DNA of 64,000 nucleotides from NCBI RefSeq assembly GCF_000711215.1, contig NZ_JOMF01000005.1, positions 1 through 64,000 on the forward strand, in the 5' to 3' direction. The notes under the pieces are model-generated. The model had not been told where the DNA came from, made no database searches, and saw nothing but the letters and a program-made list of their open reading frames with translations. Made by a program: the position numbers and the translations under genes. Positions 5,663-58,475 of the stretch are shown here, in pieces. This DNA is from Methanomicrobium mobile BP (GTDB lineage Archaea > Halobacteriota > Methanomicrobia > Methanomicrobiales > Methanomicrobiaceae). Each line of letters opens with the position of its first letter. Position 1 is the first letter of the stretch.

Positions 5663-5838
5663 GCTGAATCGTGAATCGCGTATCTGTTATCTGATTCTTT
5701 TCAATAATCGGATTCCTTTCAATACAGTTTTTAGGACAGTATCCGTTAATATCATTTTGTTGACCCGAGACCCCGGGGCTTTGACGAAGGGGGGCGGGTA
5801 TGGACGGTTCCGCCGTGCCCGCGTATCGATTACTCCGT

Positions 5839-6846
5839 TTAAAGCGGCGTAAGTTCGACGATCATGCCGTCGTTTGGATACTTCTCTATAACCTGCTTCT
5901 CGCCCTTAAAGTCCTCGGGGAAGTCGGTCAGAAGCCACCACGCAAGCTCGATGTGATCCTCAAAGGTCTCATACATGTCTTCCTCGAGATCTTCTGGAAG
6001 CGGCGCTTCCATGCCGCCTTCGGGAACCCAGTATCCGTAGACGACCGTGCCGTCCTCGGTTATCTCCTCAAAAGGTCTTGCCGTATTCTCCGCTATGCGC
6101 TTGAGACGTTCGCGGAGCTGCACCGAGTCCTTGAACGTGGAGGAGCACCAGTGCACCTTGCCGCAGGTTCCGTCCTCGCACCTGCCGCCGCCTGCCGCGA
6201 GGAGTTTTTCCGCCCAGACCTCGGCGCCCGGGACGGCATTGTGGTAATCGTCCTCTAGGCTGTAACCGCGGCTGCGCATTGCCTCGGCATTCGTCTCGCT
6301 CCATTCGAGTTCGTTGATGTTTAAGTAATCGAGATACGGAAGCGCTGGTATGAGGTATTCCAGCCCGGGCAGGGAGGGAACTTCGATTGTGACCTCAAAG
6401 CCCATCTCCTTCGCCGCCTTCGCCGACTCGATATACTTCGTATTCAGGATATCTTTCCAGAGCTCCTGCGGAGGGTGCATCCTTATCTCGTCGACAAGAC
6501 CCGAGAGTTTTTTAAGTATCTCGGCGTTCGGCGCCGTTCCTGTATACAGGTGGATATGGTGCTCCTTTCCGAACTCGTTCTTTAAGAGGCGGCAGTATTC
6601 GACAACCCTGTCGACCCTGAGGAGCGCTTCGCCGCCCGTGACACCAGTTCCGAGAGCGCTCATCATCCTTGCCTCGTCTATGATGTCCTGCGGGTCGAAG
6701 ACCTGACGGTCGTTTGCGAAGGTCAGGTCTTTATCCTTTCTCTCGTAGGATATCGGGCAGTACCAGCAGTCTTTGCCGCAGATGCCGGTGACAAAGAGCA
6801 CCATCTTTGCCCCCTCGCAGCACTGCCGGCACGCCTTACTCAGCAT
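5839..6846 (-). CDS. Radical SAM protein
   Basis: 335 residues. CGKDCWYCPIS near residues 23-33 is the CxxxCxxC motif that binds the radical-SAM [4Fe-4S] cluster. GTGVTGGEALL (about residue 70) corresponds to the GGEP motif that helps bind SAM. Further cysteines near the N-terminus (CRQCC) and in the second half (CEDGTCGKVHWC) could hold another metal centre, but no SPASM domain was recognised with certainty. The start overlaps the lysK stop by one base (TGATG), so the two genes form an operon. The substrate is unknown; coupling to lysK is by position only. Confidence 0.82.
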   Translation of the reverse strand: MLSKACRQCCEGAKMVLFVTGICGKDCWYCPISYERKDKDLTFANDRQVFDPQDIIDEARMMSALGTGVTGGEALLRVDRVVEYCRLLKNEFGKEHHIHLYTGTAPNAEILKKLSGLVDEIRMHPPQELWKDILNTKYIESAKAAKEMGFEVTIEVPSLPGLEYLIPALPYLDYLNINELEWSETNAEAMRSRGYSLEDDYHNAVPGAEVWAEKLLAAGGGRCEDGTCGKVHWCSSTFKDSVQLRERLKRIAENTARPFEEITEDGTVVYGYWVPEGGMEAPLPEDLEEDMYETFEDHIELAWWLLTDFPEDFKGEKQVIEKYPNDGMIVELTPL

Positions 6847-8375
6847 CAGTTCACCGTTTCCGAGAGTCTCTTGATTACAAAGTCGCTGCCGAGAGCCTCG
6901 AGGAACCAGCCGGCACGCGGACCTCTCTCCTGTGCGAGAATCGCCTTATAGATGCAGGTAAAGATGTCTTTCGGATTTATGCCCGCTTCCGTGCCCGTAT
7001 CGTAGACGGCGTTGTGGATATTCTCGGCGTTCCATACGGGCACCTTCGAGAGTTTTTCGACGAGAGTCTTAATGGCGCGTTTTTCTTCGTCGCCGAATGA
7101 CTTAGCGCACTCGGGCAGTTCTTCCTTCACCGTGAAACTGACGTTCTCGGGCGCATACTGCTCGACCCAGATCTTTGCACGGCGGGCACGCTTTATGACG
7201 GCATCGCGGTTGCTGACATTATATCCGCTTCTGGCAAGTGTCTCGAGGATGGCGTCGTCGTCCTTTGCAATCTGAACGACGGTGACCAGGTGCCTGAACG
7301 GGATGTCGGTGGCGACATCCGATATCTTTGACAGCTCATACTCGCGGCTTTCGCCTTTCTCGGCGACCCTTGAGTATTCGTCGATGAGGGTGAGAAGTCC
7401 CATTCCCGGGTCGAAGTTGATTGCCTTCTCGGGTTTGCTCCTCACAATCATGTAGCGGAGAACGTCGGGGGGCACAATCTCGAGCATGGACGAGATGGTG
7501 ATTGCGACACCCGTCGAGGATGCCATTGCGCCCTTTCCTTTGAGGCTGATCCACTCGTACGGGACGGGGAAAGGTGCCTTGCCGCCGAAGATCTTCTCCA
7601 CAATCTCTTTGCCGGTGTCGTAGGAACCGCCGGCTGCGGCATGGTCTTTGCCGAAGGGCTCAACGGTAACGCCTAGCGCATTCCAGCGCATGGGCCAGTC
7701 GACACGCCAGACGAGTTTGCCTTCGCCTTTGGAGTAGTCGCATTCGTCGACATGTCCGCAGGAACATCTGTATTTGACGATATGTCTCTCGGGGTCGTGC
7801 TCCAGAATTTCCGCGTTGCTGATCTGTCCGCATCCTTTACAGATGGGGTAGAAGGGCACCCAGTTGTCGGGCAGTTTTCTCTGTGAGACTCTCTCGAGGA
7901 TCTCTTTTATTTCGGCGGTGTTCTCGAGAACCGTCTTTATCTGCTCGGTGTATTTTCCGCTTCTGTAAAGCTCGCTCGAACGGAGAACTTTGGGTTTTAC
8001 GTCAAGTTCTTCGAGTGCCTTTAAGAAAGGCTCAAGGAAGTGGTCCGCATAACTCTTGTGTTTGCCGCAGGGGCAGGGTATGTCGCAGAGCGGGTATCCT
8101 ATATATTTTGCGTAGGACTCGTCAAGGAACGGGTAAACCTTTCTGAGCGGGTCGAAGTCATCGGCATTGTAGATAAGTTCCGCATCCAGACCTTTGGCCC
8201 TCATTGCCTTGTAGACGACGTCGCCCGTGACGACTTCACGCATATTTCCGAGATGTATCGGTCCTGACGGTGTGATTCCCGTGGCGATGAGGTGCTTTAC
8301 GCCTCTGTCGACATCGGCGGCGCAGACATCCGCCCAGTGAATCTTCTCGTTTGAATTTCCGCCTGTTATTTCCAT
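6846..8375 (-). CDS. lysK: Lysyl-tRNA synthetase, class I
   Basis: 509 residues. It charges tRNA-Lys with lysine in the cytoplasm. This is the class I enzyme of many archaea, not class II LysS: residues 34-41 hold the HIGH-type signature GPIHLGN, and KGKGAMASS near residue 280 is the KMSKS-type loop. A cysteine-rich zinc-binding part lies at CKGCGQIS...YRCSCGHVDEC (about residues 173-210). ATG at 8375. The radical SAM gene is translationally coupled behind it. A tRNA-Lys(UUU) gene is also in the window at 44.9 kb. Confidence 0.95.
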   Translation of the reverse strand: MEITGGNSNEKIHWADVCAADVDRGVKHLIATGITPSGPIHLGNMREVVTGDVVYKAMRAKGLDAELIYNADDFDPLRKVYPFLDESYAKYIGYPLCDIPCPCGKHKSYADHFLEPFLKALEELDVKPKVLRSSELYRSGKYTEQIKTVLENTAEIKEILERVSQRKLPDNWVPFYPICKGCGQISNAEILEHDPERHIVKYRCSCGHVDECDYSKGEGKLVWRVDWPMRWNALGVTVEPFGKDHAAAGGSYDTGKEIVEKIFGGKAPFPVPYEWISLKGKGAMASSTGVAITISSMLEIVPPDVLRYMIVRSKPEKAINFDPGMGLLTLIDEYSRVAEKGESREYELSKISDVATDIPFRHLVTVVQIAKDDDAILETLARSGYNVSNRDAVIKRARRAKIWVEQYAPENVSFTVKEELPECAKSFGDEEKRAIKTLVEKLSKVPVWNAENIHNAVYDTGTEAGINPKDIFTCIYKAILAQERGPRAGWFLEALGSDFVIKRLSETVN

Positions 8376-29398: not shown

Positions 29399-30226
29399 TT
29401 ATATCGGTACCGCGCCCTGTATTCTCTCTTTAGTGAATGTCCTTTGCGGATATGAAGGTGCATCTTCCCCGTAAATATAAAAGCCAATGATGCTGGAAGG
29501 TTGGTTCATATTGTGGGGGTTGCATTTCGTACAGATATCTTCTCTCAATCTCTTTTTATTATTATAATCCGTGAAATAACCGGGCCAATTGACGGTGAAC
29601 GTTAATTTGTAGATTTCGTCCTTTTCAGGTTTTATCAGATCTGCATTAATCCTGTATGTTCTTGATTCTGAGGCTGCCAGATTGTTTACTTCTATATCCT
29701 CAACCGGCAGGTATGCAATAAATTCTTCATCAATGTATTCTACGCTTGTATTGACTTTTGAGACGCTCAGCGTTACGTTATAGACGGCATGACGACAATC
29801 AATACCTGCTCCGTTATATACGGTGTAATCATAACTCAGTTTGTTTCCGTCAACCGATACATTTGCATTATACCAGATATCATCATACTCTTTCGGTCTT
29901 GTTTCTTTTTTGCTCATGTGATCTCCGATATATACGGGTTTTTGCCACATTTCGGGCTTTCTGAGCTGAAATGTGTCGTTGTCGCTGAAATAATCAATCT
30001 CCGGCGGGCGATCCTCAGGATCAGACCACATAATCACTAAGTCTTCGGGAAGCGAGTATCCGCCCATCCACTGCCTCATCATCTCTTCATCCAAGTAGTA
30101 ATATGCCGATTGCACCGGCGGCGGCACAAAGAGAATTACGTAAATCATTACGGATGTCATTATTGCCGCAATTAAAACCAATATTTTTGCCTTTTTTGAG
30201 ATCGTAGTGTCCATCTTATTCCCCAT
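29399..30226 (-). CDS. Membrane-anchored extracellular protein, distant member of the 53-57 kb paralogue family
   Basis: 275 residues with one hydrophobic segment (about residues 15-35) and a long outside part rich in Tyr, Asp and Asn with several N-x-S/T sites. I do not recognise a named domain. The stretch VDGNKLSYDYTVYNGAGIDCRHAVYNVTLSVS follows the same pattern as a segment of the paralogues at 53.6, 55.3 and 56.2 kb (Asp, LxYD, NG, Cys, Ala, Asn, Ser). It later has DEIYKLTFTVNWPG against NEIYYLRIYYK...VPG. A beta-sandwich surface protein is inferred. An ACTATATATAGT promoter-like sequence lies upstream. Confidence 0.6.
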   Translation of the reverse strand: MGNKMDTTISKKAKILVLIAAIMTSVMIYVILFVPPPVQSAYYYLDEEMMRQWMGGYSLPEDLVIMWSDPEDRPPEIDYFSDNDTFQLRKPEMWQKPVYIGDHMSKKETRPKEYDDIWYNANVSVDGNKLSYDYTVYNGAGIDCRHAVYNVTLSVSKVNTSVEYIDEEFIAYLPVEDIEVNNLAASESRTYRINADLIKPEKDEIYKLTFTVNWPGYFTDYNNKKRLREDICTKCNPHNMNQPSSIIGFYIYGEDAPSYPQRTFTKERIQGAVPI

Positions 30227-30349
30227 GTAAGAAACCGAACGCGGCTATTTTATGAGACTATTCTTCTGCGACTATATATAGTAATACGCTATCGTCAGGA
30301 AAAAAGCGAACATCGGGAAAGTTTCTCCGGCAAAAAAGGTATATTCGGG

Positions 30350-53606: not shown

Positions 53607-54488
53607 TCATTCATATGAACAGCAGAGTTTTGTGTTGGATTCCTTCATGTATTTTAACAGGTTTGCGGTGTATTCATCGTAAGGTGAGTCAAACCGCGTC
53701 CTGCTGTCTTTTATTACAAAGACTGCCGGCTTCATCGTGTAAGTTTCGTTTATCAGCGTGTCATAATTATGTATGAATATTGTTCTGCCGGGGACATCCA
53801 CCGAGTATATTTCCTTGTAATATATTCTCAGATAATAAATTTCGTTGAGTTTCGGTATCGGCAGGCTGTATGAGTCCTCGATGCAGGTCGATGTATGATC
53901 GGGTAAATCGGCAATTCTGACTGTTTTATTCCTGCTGTAAATCAGTTCTTCGGGGATTTTATCAATTTCCCGCCTTGTTAAATTCGCCGATACAATCTTT
54001 CGCGATAAATTATATCTTATGTTGGAGAATGCCTCAATGCATTCCACGTTCATTCCGTTTCTGAAATAGAGATCATATCTTAATGTCGCGTCATCCGCCC
54101 TAAAATTGAAGGTATAGTTTAATTCGGGTATCTTGGTATTATTGGCAATGTCAATCTCCGAATAATCCACTTCTTCGATTGGCACAAATGCAGGCATCTT
54201 CTCCGAAAGAAGATAATTAAATTTATAGTCCTTTCTTATGACATTCCAGTCATCGGCGTCGCGAAACAGCCATTCGCCCGAGGAGGCGTTATGCTCGATT
54301 ATAAACGGAACGTCATCGTCACTGTAATGTGCTCCGGGATTTTTTTCGATGACAAAATACGGTTCAAAGTACTCATGTGTGGACTTTGAGCTTGAAATCT
54401 CGAATGCAACCAAAATTGCAAATTCCGTTAAAATGACTGTTAAGACGACTATTATTACCGCCGCAATCAGAAGGCGCTTTATATTCAT
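53607..54488 (-). CDS. Membrane-anchored extracellular protein, paralogue 1 of the island family
   Basis: 293 residues. One N-terminal membrane helix (about 7-30) and a long outside domain with many Asn, Asp and Tyr residues and several N-x-S/T sites. Shared with the two paralogues: EPYFVIEKNPGAHY, VPFIIEHNASSGEWLFRDADDWNVIRK, YFRNGMNVECIEAFSNIRYNLSRK, PEELIYSRNK, NEIYYLRIYYK, VPGRTIF, and FVIKDSRTRFDSPYDEYTA. I know no named family. A conserved promoter element lies 41 bases upstream. Its C-terminus has two cysteines (LCC) not seen in the others. Confidence 0.68.
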   Translation of the reverse strand: MNIKRLLIAAVIIVVLTVILTEFAILVAFEISSSKSTHEYFEPYFVIEKNPGAHYSDDDVPFIIEHNASSGEWLFRDADDWNVIRKDYKFNYLLSEKMPAFVPIEEVDYSEIDIANNTKIPELNYTFNFRADDATLRYDLYFRNGMNVECIEAFSNIRYNLSRKIVSANLTRREIDKIPEELIYSRNKTVRIADLPDHTSTCIEDSYSLPIPKLNEIYYLRIYYKEIYSVDVPGRTIFIHNYDTLINETYTMKPAVFVIKDSRTRFDSPYDEYTANLLKYMKESNTKLCCSYE

Positions 54489-54528
54489 ACTCTCTATGAT
54501 AAAACTCTCTTTTTCTCATTAATAATAG

Positions 54529-54556
54529 TTTAGAGATTGTCCGTATTTTTACGGAC
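54529..54556 (-). promoter_or_regulatory. Shared 22-bp promoter element, copy 1, with perfect inverted repeat
   Basis: Positions 54529-54550 (TTTAGAGATTGTCCG...) are identical to 57102-57123. Both lie exactly 41 bases from the start codon of a paralogue, next to a TATA-like TATTATnAAT. In this copy GTCCGTATTTTTACGGAC (54539-54556) forms a perfect 7+7 bp dyad; in the other copy the second arm has decayed. The position just upstream of TATA suits an activator or repressor site. The best candidate regulator is the winged-helix gene at 54687; this link is inferred. Confidence 0.65.
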
Positions 54557-54686
54557 ATCCATTCTTTGTATCAATTGGAAGCAGTCAGCAGTCCGTATCC
54601 TGCGTCGTGTCTGGCGTGACTTGCAGTGAATGCCCGACCCGATTGTGACTAAGTTAATTATGATGAAACAGATATTTAGATGAGTT

Positions 54687-55223
54687 ATGGATTCCGAGGC
54701 ATCCGATGCAATTACGCTTGACAAATCCGATATGAGTGCTTTGTCGTCGGATGTCCGCATAAGTATACTGCGGGCGATTGACGGTTCCGCGGGGGGAACT
54801 GTTTCGGCGGCGACGCTTGCGGATGAGTTGTCAATCGGCAAATCTACGCTTCATCAGCATCTTTCCGTTCTTGAAAACGCGGGGATTGTCAGCGCGGATA
54901 AGAGCCGCAAATGGCATATGTATTCGCTGACGCGGAAAGGAAAGTGTATTCTTCATCCCAAGCAGAGTTTCAAATTTATTCTGGCGTTATCTTCATCCGT
55001 GTTCTTCGGGTTGTATGGCGTTTATATGCTTGTGCTTTTCTTTAAGGGGATGGAGTTTCAAGGCGGCGGTCACGTTAAGCATCTGCCCGAACTGCTCATC
55101 GGCGGCGAGATATTTCTGATTGTTGCGGGATGTCTGATATATCTTGCATTGCGGATAAATAACCGCGATAAATGCAGTTATGCCGATTCTCTTGTGCGCA
55201 AAAAGTTGACGGAAGAAAAATAG
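54687..55223 (+). CDS. Membrane-anchored ArsR-like winged-helix regulator
   Basis: 178 residues. Residues about 15-90 are a winged helix (LSSDVRISILRAIDG...TVSAATLADELSIGKSTLHQHLSVLENAGIVSADKSRKWHMYSLTRKG), with recognition helix around STLHQHLSVLE. Two membrane helices follow (about 98-122 and 136-158) and a basic tail ends the protein. DNA binding from the membrane suits sensing of an envelope or surface state. It is divergent from paralogue 1 and flanked by paralogues 2 and 3, whose promoters share an element. ATG at 54687. Confidence 0.78.
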   Translation: MDSEASDAITLDKSDMSALSSDVRISILRAIDGSAGGTVSAATLADELSIGKSTLHQHLSVLENAGIVSADKSRKWHMYSLTRKGKCILHPKQSFKFILALSSSVFFGLYGVYMLVLFFKGMEFQGGGHVKHLPELLIGGEIFLIVAGCLIYLALRINNRDKCSYADSLVRKKLTEEK

Positions 55224-55320
55224 TTTGACTGTTTAACAGTTTACGGATTAACTGTTGAGCAGTTTAACAGTTTAACGGTTTTATTTTCGGCATCCTGCGG
55301 GATTTTTCAGGTATGACTGG

Positions 55321-56151
55321 CTATTTTTTGATTATAGGGGTTGTCGTGTACATTTTCTTTTGAGTATCCAATATGGTTGCAGTAAATTCATTGTAAGGTG
55401 AGTCAAACCGTGTTCTGTTGTCTTTAATTACGAATACCGATGTCTGCGTATCATAATGATAATTTGGTTTCGGGATTGTTCTGCCGGGAACATACACTGA
55501 ATCTATTCCTTTGTAAACTACTCTCAAGTAATATATTTCGTTGATTTTCGGTATCGGCAGGTTATACGTATCTTCCATGCAGATTGATTCATATGGTGTT
55601 AAATTGGAAAACCTAGTCGATTTATCCTTGCAGTAAATCAGTTCTTCGGGAATATCCTTCAGTTCCTCTCTTGTTAAATTATCCGTAACAGTCTGTCGTG
55701 ATAAAGTGTATGTTATGTTTGATAGTGCCTCAATACACTCGACATTCATTGCGTTGTGGTAATACAAAAAATATCGCAACACTCCGCCATCTGCACTGTA
55801 GTTATATGTATATTTTAATTCCTTCAGGGTACTATTCTCCGTGTCGTATGTATATGGCATGTCCTCAGAAAGCGTGTATCCTCCAAAATAGTATTTTCTT
55901 ACGACATTCCATTCGTCCGCGTCACGAAAAGTCCATTTGCCCGTGGAGTTATCATAATCTATTACAAAGGGAACTTCATCAGCTTTAAAGTAATTTCCAT
56001 GTTCTATTTCAATAATATAATACGGAGTATATATGTTAACAGTTGCATAATTTTTAGAATTGTCGAATAAACCCAAAAATGCCAAATCGGCTATAATTAT
56101 CACAAATGCCGCTAAAATAATCGCCGTAATTTTGAGGTACTTTGAGTTCAT
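55321..56151 (-). CDS. Membrane-anchored extracellular protein, paralogue 2
   Basis: 276 residues. N-terminal membrane helix (LKITAIILAAFVIIIADLAFLGLF), nearly identical to that of paralogue 3. The outside part repeats the family order: EVPFVIDYDNSTGKWTFRDADEWNVVRK, YYHNAMNVECIEALSNITYTLSRQTVTDNLTREELKDIPEELIYCKDK, NEIYYLRVVYKGIDSVYVPGRTI, FVIKDNRTRFDSPYNEFTA. It starts 37 bases after the stop of paralogue 3 and is likely co-transcribed with it. Its ribosome binding site (GATAGGAGAAAGA) equals that of paralogue 3. Confidence 0.7.
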   Translation of the reverse strand: MNSKYLKITAIILAAFVIIIADLAFLGLFDNSKNYATVNIYTPYYIIEIEHGNYFKADEVPFVIDYDNSTGKWTFRDADEWNVVRKYYFGGYTLSEDMPYTYDTENSTLKELKYTYNYSADGGVLRYFLYYHNAMNVECIEALSNITYTLSRQTVTDNLTREELKDIPEELIYCKDKSTRFSNLTPYESICMEDTYNLPIPKINEIYYLRVVYKGIDSVYVPGRTIPKPNYHYDTQTSVFVIKDNRTRFDSPYNEFTATILDTQKKMYTTTPIIKK

Positions 56152-56188
56152 TCTTTCTCCTATCAGATTGTTTTAGGCAGTTCTATAC

Positions 56189-57061
56189 TTACTGATTATC
56201 CTGTCCGCGGGTATCGTTTATTGTGTTCCTTTTCTTTTGAGTTTCCAATATGCTTGCAGTAAATTCATTGTAAGGTGAGTCAAACCGTGTCCTGTTGTCT
56301 TTAATCACGAATACCGATGTACGTATAGGATCATAAAAATCCGGTTTCGGGATTGTTCTGCCGGGAACATCCACTGAGTCTATGCCCTTGTAAGATACTC
56401 TCAAGTAATATATTTCGTTGATTTTCGGTGTCGGCAGGTTGTATGCATCTTCAACAGTGGTTGATTCATGATCCTGCAAATTTGAAATTCTGATTGATTT
56501 ATCCTTGCTGTAAATCAGTTCTTCGGGAATGTCCTTCAGTTCCTCTCTCGTTAAATTATCAGTTACAGTCTGTCTGGATAAAGTGTATGTTATGTTTGAT
56601 AGTGTCTCAATACACTCGACATTCATTGCGCTGCGGAAATACATATTGTATCTCAGTATTCCGTCATCTGCCCTAAAATTAAATGTATGGTTTAATTCCG
56701 GAATCTTGGTTTTGTTGGCTGTGTCAACTTGAGACCAATCGAGATCCTTGAGTTTTACACAATATGGCATTTTATCCGAAAGAAGGTATCCCGCGAAAAC
56801 GTTTTTTCTTACTGCATTCCATTCATCAGCATCGCGAAACTGCCATTTGTCATCGGAACTGTCATAATCGATTACAAAGGGAACTTCATCACCCTGCAAG
56901 TAATTTCCCGGTTTCATTTCAAGAACATAATATGGGTCAAATATGTAATACGCTTCATAATTTTTAGAATTGTCGAATAAACCCAAAAATGCCAAATCGG
57001 CTATAATTATCACAAATGCCGCTAAAATAATCGCCGTAATTTTGAGGTGAGTTGAGTTCAT
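56189..57061 (-). CDS. Membrane-anchored extracellular protein, paralogue 3
   Basis: 290 residues, closest to paralogue 2; long stretches match at the DNA level, so the duplication is recent. Membrane helix at about 7-30. It keeps the middle block of paralogue 1 that paralogue 2 lacks (DLDWSQVDTANKTKIPELNHTFNFRADDGILRY). The end repeats FVIKDNRTRFDSPYNEFTA, then a polar tail. First gene of the two-gene unit, preceded by the shared promoter element 41 bases upstream. Function unknown; extracytoplasmic. Confidence 0.7.
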   Translation of the reverse strand: MNSTHLKITAIILAAFVIIIADLAFLGLFDNSKNYEAYYIFDPYYVLEMKPGNYLQGDEVPFVIDYDSSDDKWQFRDADEWNAVRKNVFAGYLLSDKMPYCVKLKDLDWSQVDTANKTKIPELNHTFNFRADDGILRYNMYFRSAMNVECIETLSNITYTLSRQTVTDNLTREELKDIPEELIYSKDKSIRISNLQDHESTTVEDAYNLPTPKINEIYYLRVSYKGIDSVDVPGRTIPKPDFYDPIRTSVFVIKDNRTRFDSPYNEFTASILETQKKRNTINDTRGQDNQ

Positions 57062-57101
57062 TCTTTCTCCTATCAGACTCTATTTTTCCTATTTATAATA
57101 C

Positions 57102-57123
57102 TTTAGAGATTGTCCGTATTTTT
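57102..57123 (-). promoter_or_regulatory. Shared 22-bp promoter element, copy 2
   Basis: Identical over 22 bases to 54529-54550 and at the same 41-base distance from a paralogue start. On the minus strand it is followed by a TATA-like GTATTATAAATAGG. It sits 85 bases before the divergent PepSY gene, so it could serve both directions. The inverted repeat of copy 1 is only half kept here. Confidence 0.65.
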
Positions 57124-57208
57124 CCGAACGATTAAGCATTGTTTATATCTTAAAAAGTTTGAAAGATTGTATTATCCGAAGATTATTGAATCTTAGAGGG
57201 GGATAAAA

Positions 57209-58180
57209 ATGCAAAAAGGAGTAATTATAGCGGCAGCGGCAGTCGTTGCTGTCGTTGTTGTCGTTGCTGCGGTTGCAGTCGTCTGCGGCATTCCGGCAGT
57301 GAGCATGTCAAATTCAGCATCCGCAGGTGCCGACAACGGAAATGCAGGTGCCGATGCGGGTAAAGTAAGCGGCGAGAGCGTAAAAACAACCGCCGCCGAC
57401 GAAGGAAAGAGTACCGAAAGCACAGTTAGAGCCGGTGACGCCGGCGGGGAGATAACCGTTGAGGAAGGAAAAGAGAGCGTATTGAAGTTCATCGGCGATG
57501 ACAGTCTGAAACTCTCCGACATAAAATTCGCAAATGAAGTCGACTACTTCAGTCAGGGGGATTATTATCAGTATAACGTCGACGGCGGCAACGGAATCGG
57601 CAAAGTCGCCGCATATGTCAGTAAAGATAACGGCAATGTGGAGATGATCTCATTCTACGACAAGAGGAGCGGCGGAGAAAAGGAGAAGGCAATAACGCTT
57701 GATCAGGCAAAAGAGAATGCATGGCGCTATATTGCCGATAAGTATCCCGAATTTGTGAAGATGAATACGGTCGAAATCGACTCGGAATATAACGATCACA
57801 TGGCGGGGGGCAAGGATTACATCTTCACTTGGAGGGAGTCGGTTGACGGCGTTCAGACTCTGAATCTTGTCACACTCGCGGTTGACGCGGTTAACGGCGA
57901 AATTCTCTCGTATATGGCGCTTAACCGCGATTATACGGGCACGATGACGCCGAAGCTGAGCGAAGACGAGGCTTATGCAAAGGCAATCGAGGCGTTCCCC
58001 GGCATTGAGATAACCGAGAAGTCCTGCACGCTCTCAGTGGAATATGTCGAGAAGGGTCGCCCCGCATTGAGTTATACCGTGACGCTGAAAGGAAAACCTG
58101 TCAATTACACGTCATACGGCGGCATTGTCCTCATTGACGCCGAAACCGGCGAGATAATGCTTAAGAGCGGATATAACTGA
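57209..58180 (+). CDS. Membrane-anchored PepSY/YPEB domain protein
   Basis: 323 residues. A membrane helix of mostly Ala and Val (about 4-32) is followed by a Gly/Asp/Ala-rich spacer to about residue 85. Two PepSY-like repeats follow: ITLDQAKENAWRYIADKYPEF...LVTLAVDAVNGEILSY and LSEDEAYAKAIEAFPGIEI...GIVLIDAETGEIML. PepSY domains are often inhibitory or regulatory and lie outside the membrane. A GAGGGGG ribosome binding site precedes the ATG. It is divergent from the paralogue operon. Confidence 0.75.
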   Translation: MQKGVIIAAAAVVAVVVVVAAVAVVCGIPAVSMSNSASAGADNGNAGADAGKVSGESVKTTAADEGKSTESTVRAGDAGGEITVEEGKESVLKFIGDDSLKLSDIKFANEVDYFSQGDYYQYNVDGGNGIGKVAAYVSKDNGNVEMISFYDKRSGGEKEKAITLDQAKENAWRYIADKYPEFVKMNTVEIDSEYNDHMAGGKDYIFTWRESVDGVQTLNLVTLAVDAVNGEILSYMALNRDYTGTMTPKLSEDEAYAKAIEAFPGIEITEKSCTLSVEYVEKGRPALSYTVTLKGKPVNYTSYGGIVLIDAETGEIMLKSGYN

Positions 58181-58280: not shown

Positions 58281-58475
58281 TTAAGTACCCAATATTTTTT
58301 CGGCTTCTTCTGCGGAATAACGCGGCTCTCTTCTCAATCGCTCCAGTTCTTCGCGTATTTCGCATTTCTCTGCCGGTCTTAGTTCCCTCAATATCGTTTT
58401 TGAAAAGGATTCACGCCCTATACGACGGGAACAGAGTTCATTATACGCGGCATCGGACAGGACTAAAGTTTTCAT
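58281..58475 (-). CDS. VapB-type antitoxin (DUF217 pattern), orphan
   Basis: 64 residues. MKTLVLSDAAYNELCSRRIGRESFSKTILREL matches the archaeal VapB/DUF217 pattern (KTIxLSDExYxxL...ESFSDVI). The C-terminal half is a charged helix. No PIN-domain VapC toxin is next to it: the downstream gene is convergent and unrelated. It may be a solitary remnant or act on a toxin elsewhere. No clear ribosome binding site; the start ATG is at 58475. Confidence 0.65.
   Translation of the reverse strand: MKTLVLSDAAYNELCSRRIGRESFSKTILRELRPAEKCEIREELERLRREPRYSAEEAEKILGT

Follow-up and report, generated by a model that had tools for sequence, protein, structure and literature searches.

A cluster of membrane-anchored proteins beside a membrane-bound winged-helix regulator raises the question of whether this regulator controls its neighbours and through which DNA element. 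The cluster lies in a window (the whole 64,000-nucleotide stretch of DNA that was analysed) from the 1.71-Mb, 12-contig genome of the rumen methanogen Methanomicrobium. A metagenome bin of Methanomicrobium from a goat, present in the public genome set, is closely related to it. All features given in a preliminary description of this DNA were found at their positions, and one gene that it had overlooked, encoding a PepSY protein, was added. The features considered here are:

29399-30226, minus strand: anchored-family gene 4, 275 aa, far from the island and in the same window
30294-30311, minus strand: diverged putative operator GTTCGC-N6-CCTGAC, upstream of anchored gene 4, 13 bp from its TATATATA box
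53607-54488, minus strand: anchored protein 1, 293 aa, N-terminal membrane helix and external beta-rich domain
54518-54525, minus strand: TTATTAAT, TATA-like box for anchored gene 1; 13 bp separate it from operator copy 1
54539-54556, minus strand: putative operator copy 1, perfect dyad GTCCGT-N6-ACGGAC
54687-55223, plus strand: regulator of the winged-helix (ArsR/HTH_20) type, its C-terminal part carrying two membrane helices
55321-56151, minus strand: anchored protein 2, 276 aa
56189-57061, minus strand: anchored protein 3, 290 aa
57091-57098, minus strand: TTATAAAT, TATA box for anchored gene 3; 13 bp separate it from operator copy 2
57112-57129, no strand assigned: putative operator copy 2, GTTCGG-N6-ACGGAC as read on the minus strand, common to divergent promoters
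57143-57150, plus strand: TTATATCT, TATA-like box for the PepSY gene; 13 bp separate it from operator copy 2
57209-58180, plus strand: PepSY/DUF4901 protein, 323 aa, N-terminal membrane helix or signal

The middle anchored gene is probably co-transcribed with gene 3, since it has no palindrome of its own and starts 37 bp past gene 3. A short ORF at 58281-58475 (minus strand) gave a VapB-antitoxin-like match slightly under the Pfam cut-off. Elsewhere in the genome there are two more regulator loci: C6, which has a PepSY gene and, as a marginal candidate, an anchored gene, and C10, where the contig end interrupts an anchored gene. More anchored-family genes are cut off at the contig ends G000:C10 and C11, where one tandem array is possible.

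The preliminary description had taken a 22-bp element as its key evidence. This element is indeed identical at 54529-54550 and 57102-57123, each time 41 positions from a start codon, and a genome search allowing up to three mismatches returned these two copies and no third. The identity itself carries less weight than had been given to it, as another 22-bp identical run sits in the coding region of the paralogues. In addition, the identical block takes in the promoter-proximal spacer adjoining the TATA box. The 18-bp palindrome, located at 54539-54556 and 57112-57129, is a better candidate for the functional unit. The perfect dyad reported for copy 1 (GTCCGTATTTTTACGGAC, 54539-54556) is the only instance of its pattern in the genome.

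A profile search with the three anchored proteins found distant relatives within the order, lying beside the same kinds of genes as in the window. Anchored and regulator genes are adjacent in more than 20 genomes, and the order peptidase-PepSY-anchored-regulator is kept together in about 20 genomes, in some of which the peptidase gene is broken or at a contig edge; in the family to which the window belongs, two genomes show the order anchored-peptidase-PepSY-regulator instead. The peptidase gene is split into fragments in two relatives (L053 and L054). The window's PepSY protein passes two Pfam cut-offs (PF03413, 29.1 vs 24; PF16244, 38.3 vs 27). No peptidase gene was found in the window's own genome, which was searched by pattern and by regions. 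By its gene content, the island is a derived variant of the conserved operon, one that would have kept the regulator, the PepSY gene and three anchored genes while the peptidase was lost from the genome. The proposal that the anchored proteins belong together with the element and the regulator as a unit is borne out by the adjacency of the anchored and regulator genes and by a palindrome that tracks this pair. Calling the module self-contained was too narrow, as the PepSY gene, the distant anchored paralogue and, in relatives, the peptidase also belong to it.

Across genera, the palindrome has a 6-N6-6 form (consensus RTTCGG-N6-CCGAAC), and in most cases 13 bp separate it from the TATA box downstream. 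It precedes the peptidase gene in those relatives' operons that have an anchored gene. With up to two mismatches allowed, it was present upstream of 18/18 related operons with an anchored gene and of 0/10 peptidase-PepSY pairs lacking the anchored/regulator pair (Fisher p 8e-8, for loci that are not independent). Some of the 18 loci stop before the regulator position; the regulator is seen in most, wherever the contig extends far enough. Rather than occurring widely before unrelated genes, exact palindromes cluster at operon loci, with 13/15 of those in five genomes lying within about 10 kb of the operon. Extra exact palindromes (L058, L059), belonging to a single relative, lie near reprolysin-like and transglutaminase-like secreted-protein genes, and a palindrome is also near a secreted-protein gene in genome G083, which was outside the regulator-presence check.

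An operator scoring model built from 12 unique sites, all from other genera, and combined with a TATA term gave 57112-57129, in either orientation, the highest rank of all sites in the 64-kb window; this site may serve anchored gene 3 as well as the PepSY gene that diverges from it. The fourth match among those listed is upstream of anchored gene 4, and the best match at the C6 locus is upstream of its PepSY and regulator genes. Operator copy 1 keeps its dyad symmetry with changed half-sites; it scores poorly, outside the top matches listed, and copy 1 of the sister species also differs. Could the shared element then be a core promoter merely retained after gene duplication, with the adjoining regulator acting elsewhere? 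Its position next to the BRE/TATA element, the other 22-bp identical runs that the paralogues have in common and a sister-species copy 1 that is not identical would all fit. However, other genera have the palindrome at equal spacing before non-homologous first genes (peptidase, PepSY), and it is missing where the anchored/regulator pair is missing; we consider a retained core promoter very unlikely.

The protein at 54687-55223 had been described as a winged-helix protein with two membrane helices, and this agrees with a Pfam HTH_20 match of 42 bits (cut-off 27) and hydrophobic helices near residues 97 and 132. With HTH_20 above cut-off and two helices by hydropathy, it has a predicted DNA-binding domain and at least one predicted membrane region in one polypeptide, as transmembrane transcription regulators (TTRs) do. 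Its DNA-binding part resembles ArsR-family structures; an assignment as ArsR/SmtB metalloregulator was rejected at 44.2 bits for NCBIfam NF033788, below the cut-off of 55. The external loop is short (roughly 15-20 residues), no sensor domain was found in the protein, and its own promoter in the window has no clear palindrome. In PADLOC, the winged-helix domain matches Csa3/CARF winged helices. A known anti-phage defence system was rejected, as PADLOC matched only this domain, plus the PepSY protein in one marginal match (E 0.0095).

We judge it fairly probable, from gene order and operator geometry, that this membrane regulator controls the anchored and PepSY promoters through the palindrome, and that its targets form an extracytoplasmic peptidase-control system. 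The palindrome could instead be owned by a different regulator, with the membrane winged-helix protein co-regulated by it and not binding the palindrome. Palindromes do precede other nearby secreted-protein genes too, but the membrane regulator is the only DNA-binding protein of the operon. Related two-helix regulators stand beside chymotrypsin-type-looking secreted proteases (L063, L064, L065, L066, L068, L039). Such regulators have similarly spaced 6-N6-6 palindromes with different half-sites, individually weak and consistent with the membrane regulator as the binding protein; this argues against a different owner, which we regard as unlikely. At L067 (6561-8548), GTTCGA-N6-TCGAAC lies between a related regulator and a downstream C39-like secreted-protein gene.

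As for the regulator's presumed targets, the three homologous single-pass proteins are confirmed as ORFs, each with one N-terminal hydrophobic helix. Two of the copies are 51-53% identical to copy 1, and copies 2 and 3 are 72% identical to each other; each has 7 N-glycosylation sequons (vs ~2.6 expected). The statement that no family is described for them also stands, considering that no model matched in Pfam, NCBIfam, PHROGs or PADLOC (for PHROG, proteins 1 and 3). PADLOC likewise had no match for the peptidase. A viral origin was rejected, as IMG/VR held no relatives of the anchored family or the peptidase, and PHROG no match for anchored proteins 1 and 3. The anchored family was seen within the order only, and the peptidase extends to a few genomes beyond. 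After its one membrane helix, the anchored protein is modelled as beta-rich (pLDDT 73). Its top Foldseek match is 3isy, an intracellular proteinase inhibitor (E 1.3e-4, but with a TM-score of 0.19-0.35 and the model at pLDDT 73), so that a BsuPI/IPI-type inhibitor-like fold is a weak lead only. The model of the relatives' peptidase (pLDDT 85) matches CHAT, gingipain R, separase and caspases. Its His and Cys are invariant, and this caspase-like fold with a His/Cys dyad places it in clan CD as a predicted peptidase without a Pfam match.

Between the Methanomicrobium sister species, the anchored proteins are 58-86% identical, the regulator 96% and the flanking genes 98-100%. The sister species' anchored gene 3 (L042, G020, 5695-7345) is clearly a recombination mosaic, its first half matching window gene 2 and its second half window gene 3; its anchored gene 2 (L042, G020) has a C-terminal truncation. 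The anchored proteins may have no part in proteolysis and may instead be surface proteins that diversify, as adhesins or receptors, with incidental PepSY and peptidase neighbours, a reading compatible with control of the operator by the regulator. Fast evolution (58-86% amino acid identity, vs 96-100% for neighbouring genes), mosaicism, sequon enrichment and the window's own peptidase-free genome all speak for it, whereas the order with peptidase and PepSY is retained in about 20 genomes. We give this possibility serious weight, at somewhat below an even chance.

Under the preferred reading of a peptidase-control system, the protein at 54687-55223 would be a one-component transmembrane transcription regulator that uses its winged-helix domain in the cytoplasm, probably in dimeric form, to bind the 6-N6-6 palindrome directly preceding BRE/TATA. 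From the membrane it would control the promoters of anchored genes 1 and 3 (the latter with gene 2) and of the divergent PepSY gene, with anchored gene 4 under weaker control. Activation would be somewhat likelier than repression, because the palindrome sits upstream of the BRE. In relatives, the targets would include the secreted caspase/gingipain-fold peptidase, with the PepSY protein likely restraining peptidases and the anchored beta-domain protein possibly an inhibitor, receptor or substrate. The rumen Methanomicrobium may have lost the peptidase and retained the envelope part under control, while its anchored genes were amplified and reshuffled. More broadly, there may be a methanogen family of membrane regulators that each have a separate 6-N6-6 operator, placed 13 bp before TATA, and that act straight from the membrane, without a sensor domain, to control neighbouring extracytoplasmic peptidase/inhibitor genes by reading the state of their anchored/PepSY partners, and whose set in rumen Methanomicrobium is now peptidase-free, recombining and made up of anchored inhibitors or receptors. 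In this full extent, the idea is tentative and rather unlikely.

Membrane-bound transcription regulators are common in methanogens, but the operator, regulon or signal is known for few of them. In the present case, a target operon can be named together with a specific palindrome and a promoter geometry, which makes binding and signal directly testable. The operon ties together a secreted protein with the caspase/gingipain fold, a PepSY protein and a surface protein that evolves fast and has no model in Pfam or NCBIfam, and the system points to an undescribed regulation of outward-facing proteins. The literature searched held no description of the operon, or of the operator with its set of targets; the TTR class is already known, and the combination of regulator, palindrome and target operon was not found described in these papers.

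Several known systems resemble parts of this one. The operon partner in relatives has the fold and the invariant His and Cys of gingipain R, CHAT and other caspase-fold (clan CD) proteins, but is small, secreted, without a Pfam match and missing from the window's genome. The protein at 57209-58180 belongs with PepSY/YPEB-domain proteins (Pfam PF03413, DUF4901), with both Pfam cut-offs passed; its relatives differ in sharing an operon with a caspase-fold peptidase rather than being fused to a metallopeptidase. We know of no operon of ArnR or ArnR1 with PepSY or peptidase genes. These two proteins, which regulate the archaellum and pili of Sulfolobus (cited in PMC13286277), are alike in being archaeal helix-turn-helix proteins that act on surface-protein genes from the membrane. 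They differ in their targets: the window regulator has PepSY and anchored genes as neighbours and no archaellum genes. TTRs, a known class that is reported as enriched in Methanomicrobia (Demey et al. 2023, PMC10269533), have a DNA-binding domain and membrane helices in one protein, as in the window regulator; this regulator is of ArsR/HTH_20 type, and that paper makes no mention of ArsR. Activators typically bind upstream of the BRE, EarA and Ptr2 being such methanogen activators (PMC5512572). While these two are not described there as membrane proteins and have other sites and other targets, they share with the putative operators of the window a position just upstream of BRE/TATA.
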